From contig JABLXJ010000002.1 in NCBI GenBank assembly GCA_013178125.1, forward strand, positions 248,001 to 312,000: DNA of 64,000 nucleotides. The letters run 5' to 3'. The notes beneath the pieces are model-generated. The model saw only the letters and a list, made by a program, of their open reading frames with translations. It was not told where the DNA came from and made no database searches. The DNA is from Bacillota bacterium. GTDB taxonomy: Bacteria; Bacillota; SHA-98; Ch115; JABLXJ01. A program made the position numbers and the translations under genes. The first letter of the stretch is position 1. The number at the start of each line of letters is the position of its first letter. This document shows positions 1 through 45,175 of the stretch, piece after piece.

Positions 1-231
1 CTGAGCAGATTTGCCGAATACTTCGGCCTTGGTTTTCAGGCCGCGGACGATCTTGCGGATATGAACTCGGACGAAGACAGCATCTCGCTGGCAAGGGCAT
101 ACGGGGCTGACAGGACGCGCTCGCTGATCCGGGAGCTCAGGGATCGCGCCGTATCGGAGCTTGATTTCCTGGGCGAGCGGGCGAGGGTTCTCCGTTCGCT
201 AGCAGACTATTTGCTCATTGCCTCTGCGTAA
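1..231 (+). CDS. ispA: Farnesyl/geranyl diphosphate synthase, C-terminal part
   Basis: This is the last 76 codons of a trans-prenyltransferase, open at the left edge. The protein condenses isopentenyl and dimethylallyl diphosphate into C10-C20 prenyl diphosphates in the cytosol. The visible second aspartate-rich motif, FQAADDLAD near the start of the fragment, binds Mg-diphosphate. The remaining helix and the ending in SLADYLLIASA fit the usual C-terminus of the IspA group. It lies upstream of the OLE RNA, oapA and dxs, the order known from OLE-carrying Bacillota, which supports ispA over other prenyltransferases. A 20-bp direct repeat spans the stop codon (units at 216 and 236). Confidence 0.85.
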   Translation: MSRFAEYFGLGFQAADDLADMNSDEDSISLARAYGADRTRSLIRELRDRAVSELDFLGERARVLRSLADYLLIASA

Positions 232-373: not shown

Positions 374-402
374 TTGCAGTGCAGGCGGGTTTATGTTATA
401 AT
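374..402 (+). promoter_or_regulatory. Sigma-A-type promoter for the OLE RNA transcript
   Basis: TTGCAG at 374-379 and a perfect TATAAT at 397-402 are separated by 17 nt. The predicted start is near 409-410, just before the conserved-looking non-coding stretch. This is the best promoter match upstream of the OLE region; no mapped start is available. Confidence 0.7.
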
Positions 403-409
403 CTGAAAT

Positions 410-1005
410 GCTAACGGCAGGTGGCACAGTATCCTAGTCGGCATGCCCATCTTTGAGGACGGGCCTAAAAATCCGTCGAGGGCACATCGATGAAGTCCCT
501 GGTGCCGGCTGCCGACGCCCAGTCGGGGGTCGGTGCTGGGGGTTAAGGAGATAGGGCGATCTACAATGGCATGTAGGCGTTGACCCTGTCTCCGTGGAGG
601 CCCAAGTACGTGGGGGGTCGCAGTTCCCGCGCGTTGCGCTGGGACGCGTAACTACGGCTTGGGGTTAACCTGCACAGCGGTGCGAGCGTGTGCGTTCGAT
701 AGGACCGTACATATCGCGCTGGGTGCAGTGTAGCCTGCCTTGAGTGGCCAGAGTGGGATAGCGGCATCTTGCAGCTTGAAACCCTGGCTGCAAAAGAGGC
801 TAGAGGATGGAGCGTGTTGGTGGGGAAAACTCCTAGGCTGTCCACAGCAAGTGGGGCACGCTGGGGATTACAGTGTGGACTAAGTGGTAATCTAGCATCC
901 CTGGTGGCGACACGGGGAAACGATCGTAAAGGGAAACCGCCTGGCGGCAACGCGCAGGAGAATCGTTCTGGGAAAACCAGCTAGACCTCAAGCCACAATA
1001 TTTAC
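410..1005 (+). ncRNA. ole: OLE RNA (ornate, large, extremophilic RNA)
   Basis: About 600 nt with no credible gene, lying between ispA and a four-helix-type membrane protein followed by dxs. That is the known location of OLE RNA in extremophilic and anaerobic Bacillota, where the RNA forms a membrane-bound ribonucleoprotein with OapA. The stretch is rich in G and in short self-complementary runs, for example around 506-541 and 905-960, and starts just after a strong promoter. It differs in texture from the pyrimidine-rich spacer after 1010. Ends are approximate: the 5' end is placed from the promoter, the 3' end from the change in composition. Short open frames inside it on both strands lack ribosome binding sites. 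Assignment rests on position, length and neighbours; the covariance model was not run. Confidence 0.88.
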
Positions 1006-1137
1006 TCAGCGTGGGGCCACCTGCACCTTGTTTTTCTTTTATATTCGTTTCATTCTATTCTATTCAGGTCTAACCTGCGCAGGTCTTGATCTGGGTTTCG
1101 CCTGGATTTTATGTTTTATTTTGCTTGAACACTGGAG

Positions 1138-1761
1138 GTGCGTAGGAACCTGTTGCGCCGCATTAAGCAAGTTTTAAAGGTCGGGCTGCTGACCTTTTTT
1201 TTATCGATGAGCATGAATCTTGTTTCGCGGCTCCTCCTCGCTCATGTCGGTCTGGTTTTAAGCTTCCTGATTCTTTTTATTATTGTCTTGATCGGGATCG
1301 TTTTTGATATAATTGGAACGGCAGCCGCAGCGGCCAGCGAGAAGCCTTTTCATGCCATGGCGGCTAACAGGGTCTACGGCGCCAGGGAGGCGCTGCGCGT
1401 CATCCGGAACGCTGACAAGGTTGCGAACTTCTGTAATGATGTCATAGGCGATATCTCGGGGACCGTCAGCGGCGCAGTCGGGGCGAGCATTGTATTCAGG
1501 CTCATAGTCTCCAGGTCTGCTGTTAACGAGGTTATCGCTGGCGTCCTTATGACGGGCCTGATTGCCGCCATCACTGTCGGGGGGAAATCCTTCAGCAAGG
1601 GATTTGCAATCAACGAAGCAAGCAGGGTTATACTCCTGGTCGGCGAGGCCCTGCGGTGGTTTCAGGGGGTAACGGGCATAGCCATCCTGGAGGATAAGAG
1701 GGGAAAGAACAATTCGAAAGCGACAAGAAGCAGGCGCGGAAAGCGGAGCGGGAGTGAATGA
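1138..1761 (+). CDS. oapA: OLE-associated membrane protein OapA
   Basis: A protein of about 207 residues with hydrophobic segments near residues 15-35, 38-60, 105-128 and 130-150 and a basic C-terminal tail ending KRGKRSGSE. OapA binds OLE RNA and anchors it to the membrane; the family resembles DUF21-type magnesium transporter domains. The polar loop between helices, with FDIIGTAAAAASEKPFHAMA and the following basic region, fits that family. It follows the OLE RNA and precedes dxs by 6 nt, so the three are probably co-transcribed. The start is uncertain: GGAGG overlaps the GTG at 1138, so the in-frame CTG at 1150 or TTG at 1153, 9-12 nt behind the ribosome binding site, may be used instead. 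Confidence 0.85.
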   Translation: MRRNLLRRIKQVLKVGLLTFFLSMSMNLVSRLLLAHVGLVLSFLILFIIVLIGIVFDIIGTAAAAASEKPFHAMAANRVYGAREALRVIRNADKVANFCNDVIGDISGTVSGAVGASIVFRLIVSRSAVNEVIAGVLMTGLIAAITVGGKSFSKGFAINEASRVILLVGEALRWFQGVTGIAILEDKRGKNNSKATRSRRGKRSGSE

Positions 1762-1767
1762 TACAAT

Positions 1768-3729
1768 ATGGGTGGACCACACGAGAGATTAAGGTCCCTG
1801 AGCAATCGCGAGCTTGCCAAGCTCGCCGACGCGCTCAGGGCCACAATAATAGAGACGACTGCGGCTACAGGAGGGCACCTCGCCCCCAACCTCGGTGTCG
1901 TCGAGCTGACCATCGCCCTCCACGCGGCGCTGGAGAGCCCGCGGGATAAAATCATATGGGATGTTGGACACCAGTGCTACGCCCACAAGCTCCTGACCGG
2001 CCGCGACGATAGATTCTCCACCTTGAGACAGTATGGTGGCATAAGCGGCTTCCCCAGGCGCGATGAGAGCGTTCACGACATCTTCAATACGGGGCACTCG
2101 AGCACGTCGATCTCGGCTGCGCTCGGCATAGCCGTAGCGCGCGACCTAGGGGGCGAGGACTTCGCTGTCGCGGCGGTGATAGGGGACGGCTCGATGACCG
2201 GCGGCATGGCCTTTGAGGCGCTCAACCATGCGGGTCATGTCAGGACGGACCTTATCGTGGTCTTGAATGATAACGAGATGTCGATCTCGCGCAATGTCGG
2301 GGCTCTCGCGGCCTACTTGAGCAGGCTGAGGATGAACCCCGGCGTCCGCAGGGTCAAGGGCAAGCTCGAGGAGTTTGTCGAGAAGATGCCGATAATGGGC
2401 GAAGACCTCTCAACGCTCGTGAAGCGAGTCAAGGGCAGCGTGAAATACCTGGTCATGCCCGGGATGCTCTTCGAGGAGCTCGGATTCACCTACCTGGGTC
2501 CCATCGACGGCCACGATATCGCCATGATCAGGCGCACTATCGAAGATGCCCGCGATAAGGGCGGGCCGGTTCTGATTCACGTCCTGACGCAGAAGGGCAA
2601 GGGTTACGGACCTGCAGAGCGGAATCCCCGGGCCTTTCACGGGGTCGGGCCATTTGATATAGCTACGGGATCCCCGAAGCCGGGGGCGCCGGCCCAGGCT
2701 CAAGTTCAGGCAGGGGTGGCCTCTGTCGCCGGGGCCGGGATAGGCGTAGGGATAGGGGCAGGAACGACCTACACAGATGTTTTCGGGGAGGCCCTTCTCC
2801 AGCTCGGCGCCCGGGATGAGAGGATAGTCGCCATAACAGCGGCAATGCCCGATGGGACGGGACTCGAGCAATTCGCCCGCAGGTTCCCCGGGCGTTTCTT
2901 CGATGTGGGCATAGCGGAGCAGCACGCGGTCACATTCGCCGCGGGGCTCGCTCTACAGGGCTTCATCCCCGTGGTTGCCATATACTCTACCTTCCTGCAG
3001 AGGGGATATGATCAGATACTGCACGACGTGTGCCTCCAGGGTCTCCACGTGGTCTTCGCGATCGACAGGGCCGGGCTGGTTGGCGAGGATGGCCCGACGC
3101 ACCACGGTGTCTTCGACATGGCGTTCCTCAGGCACCTTCCTGGCATGTGCCTCATGGCCCCTGCTGACGGGGGTGAGCTCGTATCTATGCTGAATCTCGC
3201 CGTCGCCTGCGAGGGCCCGGTGGCCCTCAGATACCCGAGGTCGAGGATCCCGGGCGAGCAGTATGGCCAGGATGGCGCGATCAATGGCGCCATTGACACC
3301 CGGGCGCATATGGTGAGGCCTGGAAACGACCTCGCCATCTTCGCCATCGGCAGCATGGTCGGGCCGTCTGTTGAGGCATCGCGGATACTTGATGATGGCC
3401 AGGGCCAGGGGATTAGCACGGCCGTCATCAACGCTCGTTTTGTGAAGCCTCTCGACACCGAGACATTGGCCGGGATCGCCGCCAGGACGGGGCACGTCCT
3501 GACCGTCGAGGAGGGGGCGCTCCAGGGAGGGTTCGGTAGCGCGGTGATTGAGGCCTTGAATGACGCAGGGATCGACGGGGTTCGCGTCACGAGGCTCGGC
3601 ATCCCTGACAGGTTTATCGAACACGGGGCGCGCGACCTCCTGCTCGAGAAGTGCGGCTTGACGGCTGGCGCCATAGCGAGTGCGGCGCGGCAGCTTGTGA
3701 CGGGCCAGGGGAGGTCGGCGGCGCATTGA
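1768..3729 (+). CDS. dxs: 1-deoxy-D-xylulose-5-phosphate synthase
   Basis: Condenses pyruvate and glyceraldehyde 3-phosphate to DXP with thiamine diphosphate, the first step of the MEP isoprenoid pathway. Visible landmarks are GHQCYAHKLLTGR near residue 68, the ThDP/Mg motif GDGSMTGG near 139 with LNDNEMSIS near 170, the pyrimidine-domain IAEQHAVTFAAG near 380 and DRAGLVGEDGPTHHG near 432. At 653 residues it is slightly longer than usual because of an Ala/Gly/Gln-rich linker at about 308-336, a likely in-frame repeat expansion between the first two domains. The ATG lies 6 nt after the oapA stop. Its stop overlaps the start of tlyA. Pairing with ispA makes this a short isoprenoid operon. Confidence 0.96.
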   Translation: MGGPHERLRSLSNRELAKLADALRATIIETTAATGGHLAPNLGVVELTIALHAALESPRDKIIWDVGHQCYAHKLLTGRDDRFSTLRQYGGISGFPRRDESVHDIFNTGHSSTSISAALGIAVARDLGGEDFAVAAVIGDGSMTGGMAFEALNHAGHVRTDLIVVLNDNEMSISRNVGALAAYLSRLRMNPGVRRVKGKLEEFVEKMPIMGEDLSTLVKRVKGSVKYLVMPGMLFEELGFTYLGPIDGHDIAMIRRTIEDARDKGGPVLIHVLTQKGKGYGPAERNPRAFHGVGPFDIATGSPKPGAPAQAQVQAGVASVAGAGIGVGIGAGTTYTDVFGEALLQLGARDERIVAITAAMPDGTGLEQFARRFPGRFFDVGIAEQHAVTFAAGLALQGFIPVVAIYSTFLQRGYDQILHDVCLQGLHVVFAIDRAGLVGEDGPTHHGVFDMAFLRHLPGMCLMAPADGGELVSMLNLAVACEGPVALRYPRSRIPGEQYGQDGAINGAIDTRAHMVRPGNDLAIFAIGSMVGPSVEASRILDDGQGQGISTAVINARFVKPLDTETLAGIAARTGHVLTVEEGALQGGFGSAVIEALNDAGIDGVRVTRLGIPDRFIEHGARDLLLEKCGLTAGAIASAARQLVTGQGRSAAH

Positions 3730-4571
3730 AGGAGAAGGAGCGCCTCGACATCCTGCTGGTCGAGCGGGGTCTGCATAAATCCCGCGAACAGGCCCGGCGC
3801 TCTATAATGGCCGGGGAGGTCCGGGTGGATGGCGGGAGGATTGACAAGCCCGGGACCAGGATTCCCGTGGACTGCGAGATCGAGGTCGCGAGACCGGCCG
3901 TAGAGTATGTAAGCAGGGGCGGCATCAAGCTCGAAGCGGCGCTGAGGGAGTTTGATGTCAGCGTTAAGGACAAGGTGGCCATTGATATTGGGGCCTCAAC
4001 GGGCGGGTTCACTGACTGCCTGATCAAGCATGGCGCCCGCAGGGTCTATGCCGTGGATGTGGGTTACGGCCAGCTGGCATGGGAGCTCCGGCAGGACCCC
4101 CGTGTCGTGAATATCGAGCGGACCAATATCCGCTACCTCGATGCCGCGCGCGTGCCGGAGAAGGCGGATATCATAACGATCGACGTCTCGTTTATATCCA
4201 TCAGGAAGTTCCTGCCTCGCCTGAAGGAATTCCTCGCGCCCAACGGCCGAATCATCTCCCTCATAAAGCCGCAGTTTGAGGCCGGGAGGGAGCAGGTCGG
4301 TAAGAAGGGAGTGGTCAGGGATCCCCAGGTGCACAGGAAGACATTAAGTGATATAATAGATTTTGTAGCTTCTAATAGTTTCCATATAAAGGGCCTAACG
4401 TTCTCGCCCATCAAGGGGCCGGAGGGGAACATAGAGTATTTCCTGCATCTTGGCCTGGAGCCGGGTGAAGCGAGCTCCAGGCCGGGCGAAGTGGAAGTGG
4501 GCCCTGATGTTGATGTAGATGAGGTGGTCCGGCGCGCCCACGCGGCACTGAATGGCGACCCGGCAAGATGA
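3726..4571 (+). CDS. tlyA: TlyA family rRNA 2'-O-methyltransferase (S4 + FtsJ-like)
   Basis: A protein of 281 residues. The N-terminal S4 RNA-binding domain (RLDILLVERGLHKSREQARR, then a GEVRVDGGRIDKPG turn) is followed by a SAM-dependent methyltransferase with motif I AIDIGASTGGFTDCL near residue 85 and IKPQFEAGREQVGKKG near 185. TlyA proteins 2'-O-methylate 16S/23S rRNA cytidines; the Bacillus counterpart is YqxC. The chosen start is the TTG overlapping the dxs TGA, with AGGGGAGG about 10 nt upstream; the frame is open further upstream but that part is dxs in another frame. The overlap suggests translational coupling to dxs. Confidence 0.92.
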   Translation: MKEKERLDILLVERGLHKSREQARRSIMAGEVRVDGGRIDKPGTRIPVDCEIEVARPAVEYVSRGGIKLEAALREFDVSVKDKVAIDIGASTGGFTDCLIKHGARRVYAVDVGYGQLAWELRQDPRVVNIERTNIRYLDAARVPEKADIITIDVSFISIRKFLPRLKEFLAPNGRIISLIKPQFEAGREQVGKKGVVRDPQVHRKTLSDIIDFVASNSFHIKGLTFSPIKGPEGNIEYFLHLGLEPGEASSRPGEVEVGPDVDVDEVVRRAHAALNGDPAR

Positions 4572-4624
4572 CCAGGACTAGAACGACCAGAAAAGAATGA
4601 AATGACCGGAGACCAGATATTCCT

Positions 4625-5494
4625 ATGACGAGGGTTACGAGAATCGGTTTGATTCCCCATTTGAAGAAACCGGAAGCGGTGAAGAGCGCCCGGGATATCC
4701 TGGAGTGGCTGGGTGAGCGCGGCGTGAAGGGGCTTCTCGATCCGAGGAGCGCGGAGGCCCTTGGCCTGCCCGAGCTCTCGTTTGGCGGGGCGGGCAACCT
4801 CAAGAAGAAGATGGACGTCGCCGTGGTCCTGGGCGGGGACGGGGCGCTCCTGTATGCAGCCCGGATGCTTTCGCCCTCGGGCCTACCGCTCCTCGGCGTG
4901 AATGTCGGGCACCTGGGCTTCTTGACTGAGATCGAGATCCCGGAGGTTTACAGCGCCCTCGAGAGGGTGTTGAATGGGGATTACAAGGTTGAGGAGCGCA
5001 TGATGGTCGCTGCGACGATACGACGCCGCGCGAACGAGGTCGAGAGGTTCACGGGCCTGAATGATATAGTGGTCGCCAAGGGTGCGTTTTCGCGCATGAT
5101 CCGCCTCGAGACCTACATTGACGATCACTATATAGGGACCTACCCGGCCGATGGCGTCATCGTTGCGAGCCCAACCGGCTCCACAGCTTACTCGCTCTCG
5201 GCGGGTGGCCCAATCGTCAACCCGCTCATGGATACGTTGATTATAACGTTCATATGCCCCCATACATTATTTGCCCGGGCATTTGTCATATCGAGCTTCG
5301 AGATTGTCAGGGTCGTGGTGCATGCCTCGCATGACGATATCATGGTGACTGTGGATGGGCAGGTGGGGTACAGGCTCGGGGACGAGGATGAGGTCATAGT
5401 GAAAAAGGCTGAACATAAGACCAGGCTGGTCAAGCTCGCTTCGAGGGGCTTTTACGAGGTTTTGAAGACAAGACTAAGCGAGGGGAATATATGA
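4625..5494 (+). CDS. nadK: NAD kinase
   Basis: ATP-dependent phosphorylation of NAD to NADP. The protein of 289 residues has the family GGDG motif within VVLGGDGALLYAAR near residue 70, GVNVGHLGFLTE near 95, LNDIVVAKG near 143 and the ASPTGSTAYSLSAGGPIV substrate/cation region near 180, followed by ICPHTL. The C-terminal beta domain ends normally. It sits between tlyA and argR as in many spore-formers. Its stop overlaps the argR start by 4 nt (ATGA), so the two are translationally coupled. Confidence 0.95.
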   Translation: MTRVTRIGLIPHLKKPEAVKSARDILEWLGERGVKGLLDPRSAEALGLPELSFGGAGNLKKKMDVAVVLGGDGALLYAARMLSPSGLPLLGVNVGHLGFLTEIEIPEVYSALERVLNGDYKVEERMMVAATIRRRANEVERFTGLNDIVVAKGAFSRMIRLETYIDDHYIGTYPADGVIVASPTGSTAYSLSAGGPIVNPLMDTLIITFICPHTLFARAFVISSFEIVRVVVHASHDDIMVTVDGQVGYRLGDEDEVIVKKAEHKTRLVKLASRGFYEVLKTRLSEGNI

Positions 5495-5964
5495 TCGGCA
5501 GGGTTGAGAGCGCTAAAGCAATCCGACACGCAAAGATTCTCGAGATCATAGGAAGCAGGACCATAGAGACACAGGAGGAGCTTGCGCAGGCGCTTAGAAG
5601 CGAGGGTATAGATGTGACGCAGGCCACGGTCTCAAGGGATATAAAGGAGTTGCGCCTCACAAAGCTGCCAACGGGGGATGGGAGATACCGGTATGCCGTT
5701 GCCCACGAGCAGGCCCTTGGGGACGTGCTCACAAGGCTTGAACACCTTTTTCATGATTCCGTCGTGAGCCTCGACTATAGCGAGAACCTGATCGTCATAA
5801 AAACCCTGACGGGCAATGCTCATGCTGTGGCGGATATTATTGACGACCTCAACTGGAAGGAGATACTTGGGACGATAGCCGGCGATGACACCATACTTGT
5901 AGTTGTGCGGCCTAAGTCCGTCGTGCCCGAGTTGCTCGAGAGATTCAATAGGCTTAGGGGATGA
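5491..5964 (+). CDS. argR: Arginine repressor ArgR/AhrC
   Basis: A protein of 157 residues. The N-terminal winged helix contains ETQEELAQALRSEGIDVTQA and SRDIKELRL. The C-terminal hexamerisation and arginine-binding domain ends with GTIAGDDTILVVVRP near 130-145, which carries the paired Asp that binds arginine. Known members repress arginine biosynthesis and activate catabolism when arginine is bound; targets are not visible here. It overlaps nadK by 4 nt and ends 7 nt before recN, the conserved Bacillota order. Confidence 0.95.
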   Translation: MIGRVESAKAIRHAKILEIIGSRTIETQEELAQALRSEGIDVTQATVSRDIKELRLTKLPTGDGRYRYAVAHEQALGDVLTRLEHLFHDSVVSLDYSENLIVIKTLTGNAHAVADIIDDLNWKEILGTIAGDDTILVVVRPKSVVPELLERFNRLRG

Positions 5965-5971
5965 GGAACTC

Positions 5972-7834
5972 ATGCTGCTTGAGCTGCATGTCAAGAATTT
6001 TGCACTCATCGATGAGCTTTCCCTTGAGTTTGGACCGGGCCTCAATATCCTCACAGGCGAGACGGGCGCCGGTAAATCCATCATCATAGATGCCCTGGGG
6101 CTCCTGCTCGGGGGGAGGGCCAGCGCCGATGCCATAAGGTCCGGCTCTGAGTCCATGTACGCAGAGGCTGTTTTCGCCGTTCACGAGGGCTCTCCTGCGC
6201 GTGCCGCCCTGGCTGACCTCGGGCTCGGGACAGATGTTGATGCAGGTGTTGATGGTGGGCTCCTCATCATATCTCGCGAGGTTACGAATTCGGGCCGGAA
6301 TCGCTGCCGCATCAACGACAGGACGGTGACCGTGGCCACGCTCTCCTCGATCGGGGATTATCTCGTAGATATCCACGGGCAGCACGAGCACCAGTCCCTG
6401 CTCTCCCCGGGGAGGCATATCGATCTCCTGGATAATTTCGGCGGGGAAGAACTCCTGGCCTTGCGGGCGAGGGTGGCTTCGAGATTCCGTGACCTGCGCG
6501 CCCTCGAGATGGAGCTTGCCGGGCTCTTGCAGGATGACAGGGACAAGATTCAGAGGGTTGATTTGCTTCAATTCCAGGCCGGGGAGATAGGCGACGCCAG
6601 GCTTGAGCGGGGTGAGGAGGAGGAACTCTCCCGTGAGCGCTTGGTTCTCGCAAATGCCGGGAAGCTGTTTGAGCAGTGCTCCCGCGCTTATGTTTGCCTT
6701 AACGGCGGTGACGGTAACGGTGGCGGGGCGGGCGCGGTGGATGGCTTTCAGGGCATGCCTGCAATGCCAGCGCGGGATCTCGTCGCCCTCGCCCTCAGCG
6801 AGTTGAGGGCTGCGAGCCGCATAGATAGCTCGCTCGCGGGCGTCGTGCAGCTCCTCGAGGATGCCACCATTGGAATCGAGGAGGCCGCCACGCGACTCCG
6901 GTCCTACAGGGATGAACTGGAGTTCAACCCTGAAAGGCTCGCCGAGATCGAGGATAGGCTCGCCCTGATCGCCCGGCTCAAGAGGAAATACGGGGACACG
7001 GTTGAGGCTATACTGGACTACAAGGCCAAGGTCGAGGCGGAGCTGGGCGCGATCGAGAGGAGCGGCGAGAGGATTGAAGAGCTCAGAAGCGAGATCAAGG
7101 CGCTCGAGGCTGATCTGGCCGAGCTGTGTGCGGAGCTGAGCGCGGCACGGGTCCGGGCCGCGAAGGCGCTCGAGGGTGGAGTGATGAGGGAGCTCGAGGA
7201 GCTCAACATGCCGGGCGCTGTGTTCAAGGTGGACATTTCCCAGCGGGAAGCCGCCGGTGGCATCCCGGCCACTGCTGGCTCCAGTTCCGGCTCTAGTTCC
7301 AGCTCTGGCGCCGGTACTAGCGGGCCCGGGCGCGAGCCCGGGGGGCGGCGCCTGGAGGTCACAGAAAGGGGCGTGGACTTTGTCGAATTCCTGCTCTCCG
7401 CAAACCCGGGCGAGGAGCCCCGGCCTCTTGCGCGAATAGCGAGCGGGGGCGAGCTTTCCCGGATCATGCTCGCCATAAAGGCCGTGCTCGCCGCCCACGA
7501 TGAGATCCCCACGATGGTGTTCGATGAGATAGACTCCGGGGTGGGTGGCCGCGCAGCCCAGGCCGTCGCCGAAAAGCTCGTCAAGGTTAGCAGGCTGAGG
7601 CAGGTCATCTGCGTGACCCACCTCCCGCAGATAGCCAGCATGGCGGATGTCCATTTCCATATATCGAAGGAGGTCACCAGCGACAGGACCAGGACGCGCG
7701 TTCACAAGCTCGCCTGGGGTGACCAGGTCACCGAGATCGCGAGGATGCTGGCTGGGAGCAACCTTACTGACATCACCATGAAACATGCGGAGGAGATGAT
7801 TTCCCTGGCGACCAATCTGAAGAAGGCCATGTAA
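5972..7834 (+). CDS. recN: DNA repair protein RecN
   Basis: SMC-like ATPase acting early at double-strand breaks. The protein of 620 residues has Walker A GETGAGKS at 29-36, a long central coiled coil, the ABC-type signature ASGGELSRIMLAIK near 489 and Walker B TMVFDEIDSGVGG near 513. The ATG at 5972 was chosen over upstream starts because it begins exactly at the conserved N-terminus and follows GGGGATGAGGA. Two low-complexity insertions are present: a Gly/Asn/Ala run near 247-265 and a Ser/Gly run near 430-455. Both lie in positions where homologues have loops and look like in-frame repeat expansions. In many Bacillota spoIVB and spo0A come next; here they do not. Confidence 0.96.
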   Translation: MLLELHVKNFALIDELSLEFGPGLNILTGETGAGKSIIIDALGLLLGGRASADAIRSGSESMYAEAVFAVHEGSPARAALADLGLGTDVDAGVDGGLLIISREVTNSGRNRCRINDRTVTVATLSSIGDYLVDIHGQHEHQSLLSPGRHIDLLDNFGGEELLALRARVASRFRDLRALEMELAGLLQDDRDKIQRVDLLQFQAGEIGDARLERGEEEELSRERLVLANAGKLFEQCSRAYVCLNGGDGNGGGAGAVDGFQGMPAMPARDLVALALSELRAASRIDSSLAGVVQLLEDATIGIEEAATRLRSYRDELEFNPERLAEIEDRLALIARLKRKYGDTVEAILDYKAKVEAELGAIERSGERIEELRSEIKALEADLAELCAELSAARVRAAKALEGGVMRELEELNMPGAVFKVDISQREAAGGIPATAGSSSGSSSSSGAGTSGPGREPGGRRLEVTERGVDFVEFLLSANPGEEPRPLARIASGGELSRIMLAIKAVLAAHDEIPTMVFDEIDSGVGGRAAQAVAEKLVKVSRLRQVICVTHLPQIASMADVHFHISKEVTSDRTRTRVHKLAWGDQVTEIARMLAGSNLTDITMKHAEEMISLATNLKKAM

Positions 7835-8030: not shown

Positions 8031-9623
8031 ATGACCGGGAAGATAACTAATATCTGGTCGAAAAGGCAGGTTGATGACGTATCGGGGCTGGCGACCTCCA
8101 GGGTTGTCATAGAGGCTACTTCGCCCGTAAAATGTGATATCCGGTGGAGGGACCCTCTCACGGCAGAGGTCATCTTGCCAGATTGCGAGCTTAACATGCC
8201 TGAGGGCATGATCAGGGTGAATGATGGCCTCCTGACCGATATCAGGGTCAGCCGGGCGGCGAGGCACGGTGTATTCATCCGGGTCGAGCTCGAACACCCG
8301 TCACAGTCTACCCTCCTGCAGAGTGAGCCGTTGCGCTCGCTTCCGGTGCGCCTGGTGATAGCATTTGACCGGGCGGCCATTAAGAGGATCCTGTCCGACA
8401 GGATTATTGTGATAGATCCCGGCCACGGTGGGATGGATGCTGGCGGCAGGGGGCCGGTGAATCTCCTTGAAAAGAACGTCGTACTCGATATCGCACGCTA
8501 CCTCTATAAGCACTTGAAAGAGGCTGGGGCGCGGCCTTTCATGACGCGCACCAGCGACGTGGGCATGACCCTGAAACAGCGGTTTGATCTTGCCGCCAGA
8601 TTCGGGGCTGAGGCTTTTATAAGCATACATACATATTCATCTGGAAACGCGGAGCTCGGCGGCCTCAGGACCCTTTACAATCCCTCGCGACCCGCGAGCG
8701 AGGAGCTTGCCATTCTTGTACATGATGCGGTCATCCAGAGGGCGGGCCTGAAAGATAGAGGTGTGGCGAGGGATGCGACCAGGCCCCCCGGCAGTCTCAT
8801 GAGCCCCATAATAACGGTGGAGGCTGTATGCATTTCCAACTGGGTGGAGGAGGGGCTGCTGCGCAGCCCGGTTTTCAAGGAGCGGGTTGCCGATGGGATC
8901 TTTAACGGTGTCAAACGCTTCTTCGCGGAGCGGGAACGCGGCGAATTGAGGGCGAGGGAACAGGTTGCAGGTGGAGCTGGCGGCGGCGCTGCGCGGGTGC
9001 GGATACCCATCCGGACTCACATAATAACGGAGAAGGATGATATCGTCGACGTCGTCAGGATGTATACCCGGGACATAGCAGAGCCCGGAGATTTTATTGG
9101 AATAGCCGAGAGCGTCGTTGCTATAGCCCAGGGCCGCGCAATTCTGCCTAAGACCGTCCGGCCGAGGCGGCTGGCCCGTTTCTTGAGCAAATTCCCCGGG
9201 AAAGATGGGAGCCTGGCTACCCCGCCGGCCATGCAGCTCGCCATAAATGAGGCCGGAGCCGTCCGGGTGCTGCTGGGCGCGGCCGCTGCCGCCCTGGGGA
9301 AGATGGTGGGCCGGAAAGGGGATTTCTACAGGGTTGCCGGCCGCTCCCTGGCTTTCATAGATGATATAGCGGGGACGATGCCCCCATACGATGAGCATGT
9401 CGTGCTCGGGCCCGCCCACCCCGAGGAGGTAGTAGCCAGGATAAAAAAGGAGACCGGCATCGACGTCTTTATAGCAGATGTGAACGACAAGGGCTGCGTC
9501 GACATCCTCGCAGCCTCGGATAGCATCGACCAGGTGGTGCTCAACCAATTGCTCTCGGACAATCCCTTCGGTAACGATGACCAGCAAACCCCGATCGTTG
9601 TCCTGAAACCCGTACGCCTCTAA
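8031..9623 (+). CDS. N-acetylmuramoyl-L-alanine amidase fused to a CofE-like (F420:glutamate ligase) domain
   Basis: A protein of 530 residues with three parts. Residues about 5-110 resemble an AMIN domain. Residues about 125-310 are an Amidase_3 zinc hydrolase cutting the MurNAc-L-Ala bond: IDPGHGGMDAGG (first zinc His), LLEKN (Glu), SIHTYSS (second His) and TVEAVCISN (catalytic Glu). Residues about 325-530 resemble the coenzyme F420-0:L-glutamate ligase family: KDDIVDVVRMYTRDIAEPGD, AESVVAIAQGRAI and the ending DNPFGNDDQQTPIVVL. The ATG follows AAGGG by 8 nt. The frame upstream is open only to 7971 and contains no start codon, so no signal peptide can be added; this is odd for a wall hydrolase. 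The gene takes the place downstream of recN where spoIVB is often found. A fused function in sporulation or wall turnover is inference. Confidence 0.8.
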   Translation: MTGKITNIWSKRQVDDVSGLATSRVVIEATSPVKCDIRWRDPLTAEVILPDCELNMPEGMIRVNDGLLTDIRVSRAARHGVFIRVELEHPSQSTLLQSEPLRSLPVRLVIAFDRAAIKRILSDRIIVIDPGHGGMDAGGRGPVNLLEKNVVLDIARYLYKHLKEAGARPFMTRTSDVGMTLKQRFDLAARFGAEAFISIHTYSSGNAELGGLRTLYNPSRPASEELAILVHDAVIQRAGLKDRGVARDATRPPGSLMSPIITVEAVCISNWVEEGLLRSPVFKERVADGIFNGVKRFFAERERGELRAREQVAGGAGGGAARVRIPIRTHIITEKDDIVDVVRMYTRDIAEPGDFIGIAESVVAIAQGRAILPKTVRPRRLARFLSKFPGKDGSLATPPAMQLAINEAGAVRVLLGAAAAALGKMVGRKGDFYRVAGRSLAFIDDIAGTMPPYDEHVVLGPAHPEEVVARIKKETGIDVFIADVNDKGCVDILAASDSIDQVVLNQLLSDNPFGNDDQQTPIVVLKPVRL

Positions 9624-9723
9624 TTTGGCAGTGATCATGTAGACCTAGCCGGCGCGCACCGATCTTTGCCGCTTTCAGAACTCATTTTATTTAGGACTTA
9701 TTATGTGGAGGGCGCACCCCTGC

Positions 9724-11349
9724 ATGCGGAAGCAATCATTCCTGCGCGGGGCCATGGTATTGACCGTGGCCGGGTTCATAAGCAAGGTGCTCGGCGCCAT
9801 CTACCTCGTCCCCCTCACCAGGCTCATCGGTGCAGAGGGCGTCGGGCTTTACCAGATGGCTTATCCCGTCTACGGCACAATGCTCGTTATATCAGTATCG
9901 GGCCTCCCCGTTGCTATCTCCAAGCTCGTCGCCGAACGTATCGCTCACGGCGATCCCGGGGGGGCGGCAAGGGTTTTCAGGATTGCAACGGTTATCTTGG
10001 TCGCCGTTGGTGCCATCCTGTCGTATGCGCTTTTTGCCGGGGCGAGGTTTTTGGCCACGAGGGTGCTCGGCGACCCCCGGTCCTACTATTCGATAAGGGC
10101 CATCTCCCCGGCGATCGTGCTTGTAGCCTCCATGTCAGCATTGCGTGGCTACTTCCAGGGGCTGCAGACGATGACCCCGACAGCGGCCTCGCAGATAATC
10201 GAACAGGTCGCCAGGGTTATTACCGCCCTCCTGCTGGCATATATGCTGCTTCCGAGCGGCGTGGAGTTCTCGGCGGCCGGGTCTGCTTTCGGGGCGGTTA
10301 CTGGGGCTCTCGCGGGGCTTATGTTGCTTATCGTGATCTACTTCAGGGAGCGGGGGGTCCTGGTGAGCGCGGCGGGGGCGGCAGGCGCGGCGGACGAGAC
10401 GGGCGGCACCTCCGCCCTGAGCCTGCTCAGGGAGATCGTGGCGCTCGCGCTGCCCGTGACTATTGCCTCGCTCGTCGTGCCGCTGACGGACCTTACAAAC
10501 GCGGCTATAGTCCCTGCAAGGCTGAGGGTGGCAGGGTTCAATATCCCCGAGGCAACCAGGCTTTACGGCCAATTCGCAGTGATGGCGATGAGCCTTGTGG
10601 GGCTCCCGACCGTGATCACCACGGCCTTTGCCACGAGCCTGGTCCCATCTATATCAGCGGCGTGGGCCACTGGAAATCGAAAGCTCGTGAGCGAGCGTAT
10701 CCAGGAGGCGATGAGGTTAACCATCTTAATAGGGGTGCCATCTTTTGTGGGGCTTCGCATCCTGGCGAGGCAGATATGCGGCATGCTGTTTGCCTGTCCC
10801 GAGGCGGGGGAACCGCTTACCATCCTCTCGATAGGGACCTTATTCCTGTGTGTCCAGCAGACATCGTCTGGCATCCTTCAAGGCCTCGGTCGAACGCTGG
10901 TCCCCGTCCGGAGCTTGCTTGCTGGGGCTGCCGTTGGGGCATCGCTTAATTTTGTTTTCACAGCCGTGCCCGACCTTGGAATACGGGGAGCGGCCCTGGG
11001 GACGGCTCTGGGGTTTATGGCTGCCGGCGTCCTGAACTTCGCGGGGGTCTGGGTTTTTGATCGGGCAAGGGTTGGCTCGAGCGCGGCCAAAGCCGTATTC
11101 AAAGCAGCTCTTGCCGCGCTCGCCATGGGGGTAGGTGTGAGGCTGACTTACCACCGGATTGTCCAGGCTACGTTCAGCAATTCGCTGGCGACGGTTGCGG
11201 CCATAGCGGCCGGCGCGTTGACTTATGGCGTGATCCTGATCCTGCTCGGCGAGCTTACGCCGAGGGAGCTTCGCCTCATCCCCGTCATCGGCTCTGGACT
11301 CGCCCGGCTCGTCGGCGCCATGCACGGCACGCATATCCAGCGTAAATAG
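9724..11349 (+). CDS. spoVB: Stage V sporulation protein B-like flippase (MOP/MATE superfamily)
   Basis: A polytopic membrane protein of about 541 residues with 13-14 hydrophobic segments. The N-terminal FLRGAMVLTVAGFISKVLGA and LYQMAYPVYGTMLVISVSGL are typical of SpoVB/MurJ-like lipid II or polysaccharide flippases. SpoVB is needed for spore cortex synthesis, with a lipid-linked precursor as likely substrate. The ATG at 9724 is preferred over 9703 because GGAGGG ends 11 nt upstream of it. A long loop between helices near residue 220 carries Ala/Gly residues. It ends 8 nt before the convergent prs gene, with no obvious terminator between them. Confidence 0.85.
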   Translation: MRKQSFLRGAMVLTVAGFISKVLGAIYLVPLTRLIGAEGVGLYQMAYPVYGTMLVISVSGLPVAISKLVAERIAHGDPGGAARVFRIATVILVAVGAILSYALFAGARFLATRVLGDPRSYYSIRAISPAIVLVASMSALRGYFQGLQTMTPTAASQIIEQVARVITALLLAYMLLPSGVEFSAAGSAFGAVTGALAGLMLLIVIYFRERGVLVSAAGAAGAADETGGTSALSLLREIVALALPVTIASLVVPLTDLTNAAIVPARLRVAGFNIPEATRLYGQFAVMAMSLVGLPTVITTAFATSLVPSISAAWATGNRKLVSERIQEAMRLTILIGVPSFVGLRILARQICGMLFACPEAGEPLTILSIGTLFLCVQQTSSGILQGLGRTLVPVRSLLAGAAVGASLNFVFTAVPDLGIRGAALGTALGFMAAGVLNFAGVWVFDRARVGSSAAKAVFKAALAALAMGVGVRLTYHRIVQATFSNSLATVAAIAAGALTYGVILILLGELTPRELRLIPVIGSGLARLVGAMHGTHIQRK

Positions 11350-44804: not shown

Positions 44805-44949
44805 GCAATGCCAGCCAGGCAATGGTTAAAATCTAATAAAATATAATATTAACAAAATCTAACATGGAGCATGCGGCGAGCACCGCTTGCCGCAAGTGGT
44901 GGATGGGTGTCCGGCGGAGGAAGGCTATCTGGAAAATTATTTATTTTAG

Positions 44950-45175
44950 CTATTCGCCTTCCGCCTGAGGGAGAATAGGGAAGTTGGGGCCCTGCAGGCG
45001 CGCCTCTGAGGGCGCGGCTGGGGCAGGGTAAACCACGCGGTCCCGCCACTGTATCCGGGGAGATGCCCTCAAAACGCCACTCGTATCGCGCCTGGGAGCG
45101 CCGGGTGCACGGGGAAGGCCGGGGTTTCGGTGATCCGGGAGCCAGGAGACCTGCCTATCCGCCTTGATGCCGTTG
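44950..45175 (+). promoter_or_regulatory. Cobalamin (B12) riboswitch aptamer
   Basis: A conserved leader upstream of the B12 uptake genes. The core GCCACTGTAT at about 45045 and the B12 box GAGCCAGGAGACCTGCC near 45148 are both present, with GGGTAAACCACGCGG-like pairing segments between and the GGGAAG start near 44978. It is followed within 50 nt by a terminator hairpin. Binding of adenosylcobalamin should favour termination and so shut the whole btuF-cobC operon. Outer limits are approximate. Confidence 0.93.

Follow-up and report, generated by a model that had tools for sequence, protein, structure and literature searches.

OLE RNAs are among the largest structured bacterial RNAs that lack a known biochemical function, and the structure of their dimer was solved only in 2025. 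The window analyzed in this study, a stretch of 64,000 nucleotides from a member of the Bacillota, was initially annotated as carrying an OLE RNA and its membrane protein partner within an isoprenoid operon. This raises the question of whether the RNA is indeed an OLE representative and, if so, whether it retains all the parts that are known to form the OLE dimer. The first part of this question is answered by a search with the Rfam library, in which the OLE covariance model (RF01071, gathering score 50 bits) matches nucleotides 405-1036 of the plus strand over model positions 1-616 of 616, with a score of 445.3 bits (E 1.8e-127). A genome search yields only this single OLE copy. The features of the locus are as follows.

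1-231, plus strand: 3′ end of ispA (polyprenyl synthase), a 76-aa tail with weak FPP/GGPP-synthase profile matches whose reading frame continues upstream of the window
374-402, plus strand: OLE promoter, with TTGCAG (374-379), a 17-nt spacer and the extended -10 element TGtTATAAT (394-402), in which TG occupies 394-395 and TATAAT 397-402
405-1036, plus strand: OLE RNA, matching the full RF01071 model
1138-1761, plus strand: oapA, encoding OLE-associated protein A, 207 aa from GTG 1138, as judged by OLE adjacency, invariant residues, CNNM family matches and PDB fold matches
1768-3729, plus strand: dxs, 1-deoxy-D-xylulose-5-phosphate synthase (TIGR00204, 781 bits)
3651-7834, plus strand: tlyA, nadK, argR and recN, the remainder of the usual ole cluster, with ORF ends at 4571, 5494, 5964 and 7834

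The gene order on this one strand (ispA, ole, oapA, dxs, tlyA, nadK, argR, recN) is of the kind published for ole clusters, and profile matches agree with the original description of ispA followed by a non-coding RNA region, a membrane protein and dxs. Given the full-length covariance match, the oapA partner and the setting among isoprenoid, argR and recN-type genes, the RNA is a member of class RF01071. The accompanying statement that OLE is thereby extended to this genome is true, but the extension is minor because OLE is present in 37 of 41 sampled relatives and in all four genomes of the order. As an OLE locus, the window is ordinary.

Several other features of the window and its genome were recorded during this survey. 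Apart from OLE, the Rfam library matches the 64 kb only at a cobalamin riboswitch (44931-45172), which carries a long insertion in one arm and precedes ORFs that read as a BtuF-type binding protein, a BtuC-type permease and a CobU-like protein. Downstream of recN (8031-11349), the sequence reads as two ORFs, one resembling an N-acetylmuramoyl-L-alanine amidase and the other a SpoVB/MATE-like flippase. The genome also encodes Spo0A-type proteins, in agreement with the published correlation between OLE and sporulation.

The promoter had been described as strong, with the annotated feature beginning at position 374. Its TATAAT element is real and conserved, but the -35 sequence TTGCAG is weak, and the 374-402 promoter is not among the sites listed by a strict promoter scanner. 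Position 374 does fall within the promoter, but it is the start of the -35 box, and therefore the RNA is expected to start near nucleotide 408. Relatives carry TATAAT at the same place, and the spacing is conserved across OLE loci: in 68 of 143 loci, the highest two-box score ahead of the conserved CAGTAT sequence is 10-11 of 12, compared to none of 143 shuffled upstream stretches, and the -10 element most often ends 21-24 nt before CAGTAT. The 3′ edge, as placed by homology, should lie at about 1015-1036. The terminator-like sites that follow OLE are weak.

The identity of the adjoining membrane protein is likewise supported by several lines of evidence, all of which indicate that ORF 1138-1761 is OapA and nothing else. 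Homologues recovered by phmmer directly adjoin OLE in 161 of 168 OLE loci, and no unrelated family scores better, such that the membrane protein assignment in the initial annotation passes this check. An alignment of 60 diverse OapA members reveals eight invariant columns, including D57, D101, G104, D105, G112, K150 and K154, and the protein encoded in the window keeps all invariant residues. Of the genomes tested, all five with OLE encode OapA, and none of the four relatives without OLE does. Taken by itself, the ORF has no Pfam or NCBIfam match; a CNNM relationship is visible only at the family level, where the CNNM profile hits 50 of the 60 members. The AlphaFold model of the protein (mean pLDDT 89.5) has CNNM proteins as its six best PDB matches (MtCorB, CorC transmembrane domain), with weak E-values. 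OapA therefore resembles the CNNM/CorC/MpfA metal transporters in fold and weakly in profile, but it differs from them in consisting of one short membrane domain, with no CBS or CorC domain, and in going with OLE.

In the whole genome, the best CNNM match is OapA itself, which falls below the cut-off, and no CNNM protein exceeds it. This outcome is expected if OLE and MpfA anticorrelate across genomes (PMC11332333). Within the start region of oapA (1134-1155), an SD-like GGAGGTG (1134-1140) overlaps GTG 1138, and for this reason the true start may be TTG 1153 (or CTG 1150).

The other partner proteins, left unplaced by the initial annotation, are encoded elsewhere in the genome. Between map and infA lies an ORF of 102 aa, for which the top PDB match is 7k9b, ‘OLE-associated protein B’ (E 1.5e-7); its match to OapB by sequence alone is moderate (34.7 bits). 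The KOW profile PF00467 was tried as a route to OapB and returned only L24 and NusG. An OapC-type L7Ae/YbxF protein is encoded between rpoC and rpsL, where match and locus do not separate OapC from YbxF, and bS21 is also encoded. With OapB, the OapC-type L7Ae protein and bS21 found in addition to OapA, the partner gene set is complete.

To answer the second part of the question, the RNA was compared with the published OLE architecture. The bridge assignments used below rest on structures of clostridial OLE RNAs, and the comparison of dimer loops covered L4, L5 and L6; bridge B2 also involves L7.

463-475, plus strand: A-rich loop L4, GCCTAAAAATCCG, dimer bridge B1 of the published structure; intact, and kept in RNAs with short and long P9 alike
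485-492, plus strand: palindrome CATCGATG, possibly the published P4a OapA-binding palindrome, as suggested by its position
514-524, plus strand: loop L5, GACGCCCAGTC, bridge B2; intact
564-573, plus strand: loop L6, CAATGGCATG, bridge B2; intact
600-666, plus strand: P7 arm of 67 nt, longer than 90% of compared OLE RNAs
674-724, plus strand: P8 arm of 51-52 nt by the parse used, longer than about 90% of compared OLE RNAs
733-800, plus strand: truncated P9 arm; base and internal loop kept (CCTTGAG 738-744, TGAAA 777-781, GCAAAAGAGGC 790-800), distal P9.3 and GGCC kissing loop absent
760-776, plus strand: short hairpin AGCGGCATCTTGCAGCT that caps P9 in place of P9.3
906-951, plus strand: P12/P13 region, presumed OapB site, with the motifs GGCGAC (906-911), TAAAGGGAAACC (927-938) and GGCAAC (946-951) present

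Partial OapA sites have been assigned to palindromes that lie within or close to P2 and P4a, and the OapB site has been published at P12.2/P13 (PMC12265935).

Only the P9 arm departs from expectation by loss, a feature within the RNA that the initial annotation had missed. About 39 model positions of P9 have no counterpart in the Infernal alignment of the window RNA, and the distance between GTAGCC and GCAAAAGAGGC is 54 nt, where about 84-99 nt would be usual and 120 other OLE RNAs have 80-104 nt. A typical OLE P9 ends in a GGCC loop, and the cryo-EM study published in 2025 revealed that this L9.3 loop makes a symmetric kissing contact, B3, with covariation of GGCC to GAUC or AGCU serving as support (PMC12286853). 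No 4-nt palindrome occurs in the apical loop of the window P9, and thus the window RNA is without the self-complementary L9.3 loop, which is a feature of the solved dimer and does not define the class. The window OLE has lost P9.3 along with its GGCC loop, the module that forms dimer bridge B3.

The hairpin that takes the place of P9.3 folds in both the window and its genus sibling, whose OLE RNA is 96% identical outside P7-P9. The sibling shares the short arm, and its cap forms six clean pairs, whereas the window cap contains one G.A mismatch pair. Between the two RNAs, two pairs of the cap helix differ in both bases, with G-C becoming A-U in one case and A-U becoming G-C in the other.

With respect to published forms, the window RNA shares with full-length OLE RNAs (RF01071; Halalkalibacterium halodurans, Clostridium acetobutylicum, C. 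botulinum) all conserved segments, the domain 1 dimer loops L4, L5 and L6, the P12-P13 motifs, the ispA-ole-oapA-dxs cluster and the OapA/OapB/OapC/bS21 gene set. It differs from them by the absence of P9.3 and the GGCC/GAUC/AGCU kissing loop (B3), and by P7 and P8 arms that are longer than usual. A short P9 is also seen in OLE variant 1 (Fernando and Breaker 2024, TANB77 type), but variant 1 combines it with short P7 and P8 arms, often lacks the OapB site, and scores 310-390 bits in its authors' model, compared to 445 bits in the Rfam model for the window RNA. Variant 2 (RF39 type) has the OLE core in common with the window RNA but is without P7 and P8. The window RNA retains L4, L5, L6, P7, P8 and the motifs of the presumed OapB site, and it therefore belongs to neither published short variant. 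The same holds for the short-P9 group as a whole relative to variant 1, since short-P9 RNAs keep L4, L5 and L6 as long-P9 RNAs do, and their median P7 length is 52 nt compared to 51 (P8 medians are 21 and 27).

Fernando and Breaker sorted OLE RNAs by bit score, with at least 390 bits taken as full-length (PMC11332333). The short-P9 RNAs score 441-474 bits with the Rfam model, which is not the model used by those authors, and would thus be binned as full-length because these values exceed 390. This manner of sorting may explain why the class has escaped notice. We found no description of a natural OLE RNA that is otherwise full but lacks B3 in the literature searched, which excluded the 2006 discovery paper, a second cryo-EM paper from 2025 and the published alignments.

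Short P9 arms are not confined to the genus of the window; they also occur in cultured species, for example Laceyella sacchari and Salisediminibacterium halotolerans. P9 length has a bimodal distribution among 146 distinct OLE RNAs, a collection in which short forms are over-represented owing to one of the searches used: 25 RNAs carry 45-69 nt, one carries 78 nt and 120 carry 80-104 nt, giving 25 short and 121 long arms (17% short). When 399 genomes were drawn evenly from the phylum and exact anchors were used, 16 short and 186 long arms were obtained, or about 8% short, with G382 and G174 counted as long although they fall in the short class by length. The two forms also differ in their apical loops. 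A 4-nt palindrome is present in 103 of 121 long arms (GGCC in 97) versus 51 expected from shuffled loops, whereas it is found in two of 25 short arms versus 2.5 expected.

On a tree built without P7-P9, there are 15 changes between short and long arms (bootstrap range 14-16), at least nine of which are forced by supported branches, and a single origin of P9 form is recovered in 0% of bootstrap trees. By length alone, and without recourse to any tree, families f2, f7, f15 and f30 each hold both forms. In the order that includes the window, two of three genera have the truncated arm, and in the third (G003) the arm is long but carries no palindrome; the sister family f3 has the full arm with GGCC. 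Short and long P9 arms have interchanged repeatedly and independently.

Two observations on individual families accompany this distribution. In family f15, long arms carry mostly TTCGCCGAA as the apical sequence instead of the GGCC palindrome, and truncated arms are also present; the palindrome may thus disappear ahead of the arm itself. A member of family f7 (G066) has a fast-evolving short-P9 OLE RNA without an adjoining oapA, and its oapA is located about 0.8 Mb away in the same genome.

The reading that we favor, and consider very probable, is that the locus is an OLE RNA gene with oapA as its operon partner, in which the distal module of P9 has been lost and a short hairpin caps the arm, such that any dimer would form through B1 and B2 without B3. 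Transcription from the 374-402 promoter would produce the OLE RNA together with, or ahead of, oapA-dxs. The RNA is predicted to fold into the OLE architecture, to be held at the membrane by OapA, with its CNNM-like fold, and to be capable of binding OapB, OapC and bS21, all of which are encoded in the genome. These roles in anchoring and binding come from work with H. halodurans, the laboratory OLE model, in which an ole knockout shows ethanol, cold and Mg2+ phenotypes, and most likely apply to the window RNA by analogy. If the RNA dimerizes, the contacts left would be L4 (B1) and L5/L6 (B2), without the P9 arch (B3). Our inference is that dimerization persists, with the arch as an accessory element.

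An unlikely alternative is that the B3 contact has been replaced, either by a protein or by another loop of the same RNA, for which the unusually long P7 and P8 would be candidates. The combined length of P7 and P8 in the window and its sibling, which exceeds that of about 95% of OLE RNAs, is in keeping with this possibility. However, no palindromic or otherwise common P7/P8 loop stands out by eye when the two RNAs are compared, other short-P9 RNAs have P7 and P8 arms of ordinary length, and the 86-nt P9 of a sister family already has a loop without a palindrome. It is far less probable that the short-P9 RNA is a decaying OLE gene. Sequence has indeed been lost from P9, and defective OLE genes have been mentioned for organisms without OapA (PMC11332333), but the window RNA matches the whole model and has an intact promoter, and the adjoining OapA is intact with all of its invariant residues. 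Moreover, the same short arm in the sibling species, with its paired changes in the cap, and the number of short/long changes forced by supported branches speak against decay.

We regard as more improbable still the proposal that the stretch serves only as a cis-acting leader of oapA-dxs (an attenuator or riboswitch) and yields no separate RNA. Its location between the promoter and oapA, in the same orientation, and the weak terminator-like hairpins downstream would suit a leader. In sequence and structure, however, it matches a family with known trans-acting, membrane-bound members. In addition, OLE in family f5 adjoins a c-di-AMP riboswitch, and adjacency to oapA is not required because one member of this family (G018) has oapA on another contig.

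The survey also bears on the type of cell envelope in which OLE occurs. The literature records no OLE in Negativicutes, a class with two membranes, and has suggested that OLE is linked to Gram-positive walls (PMC11332333). The genus sibling of the window genome (G001) carries an LPS cluster (L246:3979-17447) that includes LptC, LptA, LpxC, FabZ, LpxA, LpxB and an MsbA-like transporter, and LpxC is also found in genomes of the same order (G003) and the same class (G004). The lineage therefore includes LPS-type two-membrane bacteria that keep OLE, and OLE occurs in two-membrane Bacillota outside Negativicutes. LpxC was not found in the assembly that contains the window, and the LPS genes of the sibling were not found in 1.64 Mb of this genome, a portion that takes in almost every contig end.

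OLE has been proposed to be linked to c-di-AMP, and in each of the five genomes of family f5 that were examined a c-di-AMP riboswitch is located about 120-300 nt downstream of OLE on the same strand (for example, L168:2106-2241). In G018, this riboswitch leads into an NlpC/P60-like wall-hydrolase ORF. The occurrence of OLE in viruses was also considered and rejected: a 16-base pattern from the OLE core matched seven viral contigs, none of which carries OLE, and the matches are due to chance.

The covarying palindrome of B3 is part of the case for a cellular role of OLE quaternary structure. About 8-17% of otherwise full-length OLE RNAs, from many separate lineages, have dropped B3 alone, which makes core and optional contacts separable and provides ready-made natural RNAs for dimer and complementation tests. 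More tentatively, and with slightly less than an even expectation of being correct, we propose that the P9.3 kissing-loop arch may be an optional part of the OLE particle, lost on some ten to fifteen occasions while B1, B2 and all partner proteins stayed, with arch-less RNPs either dimerizing through B1 and B2 alone or adopting another quaternary state. If this is true, arch-less RNPs would be natural deletion mutants that show what purpose the arch serves.
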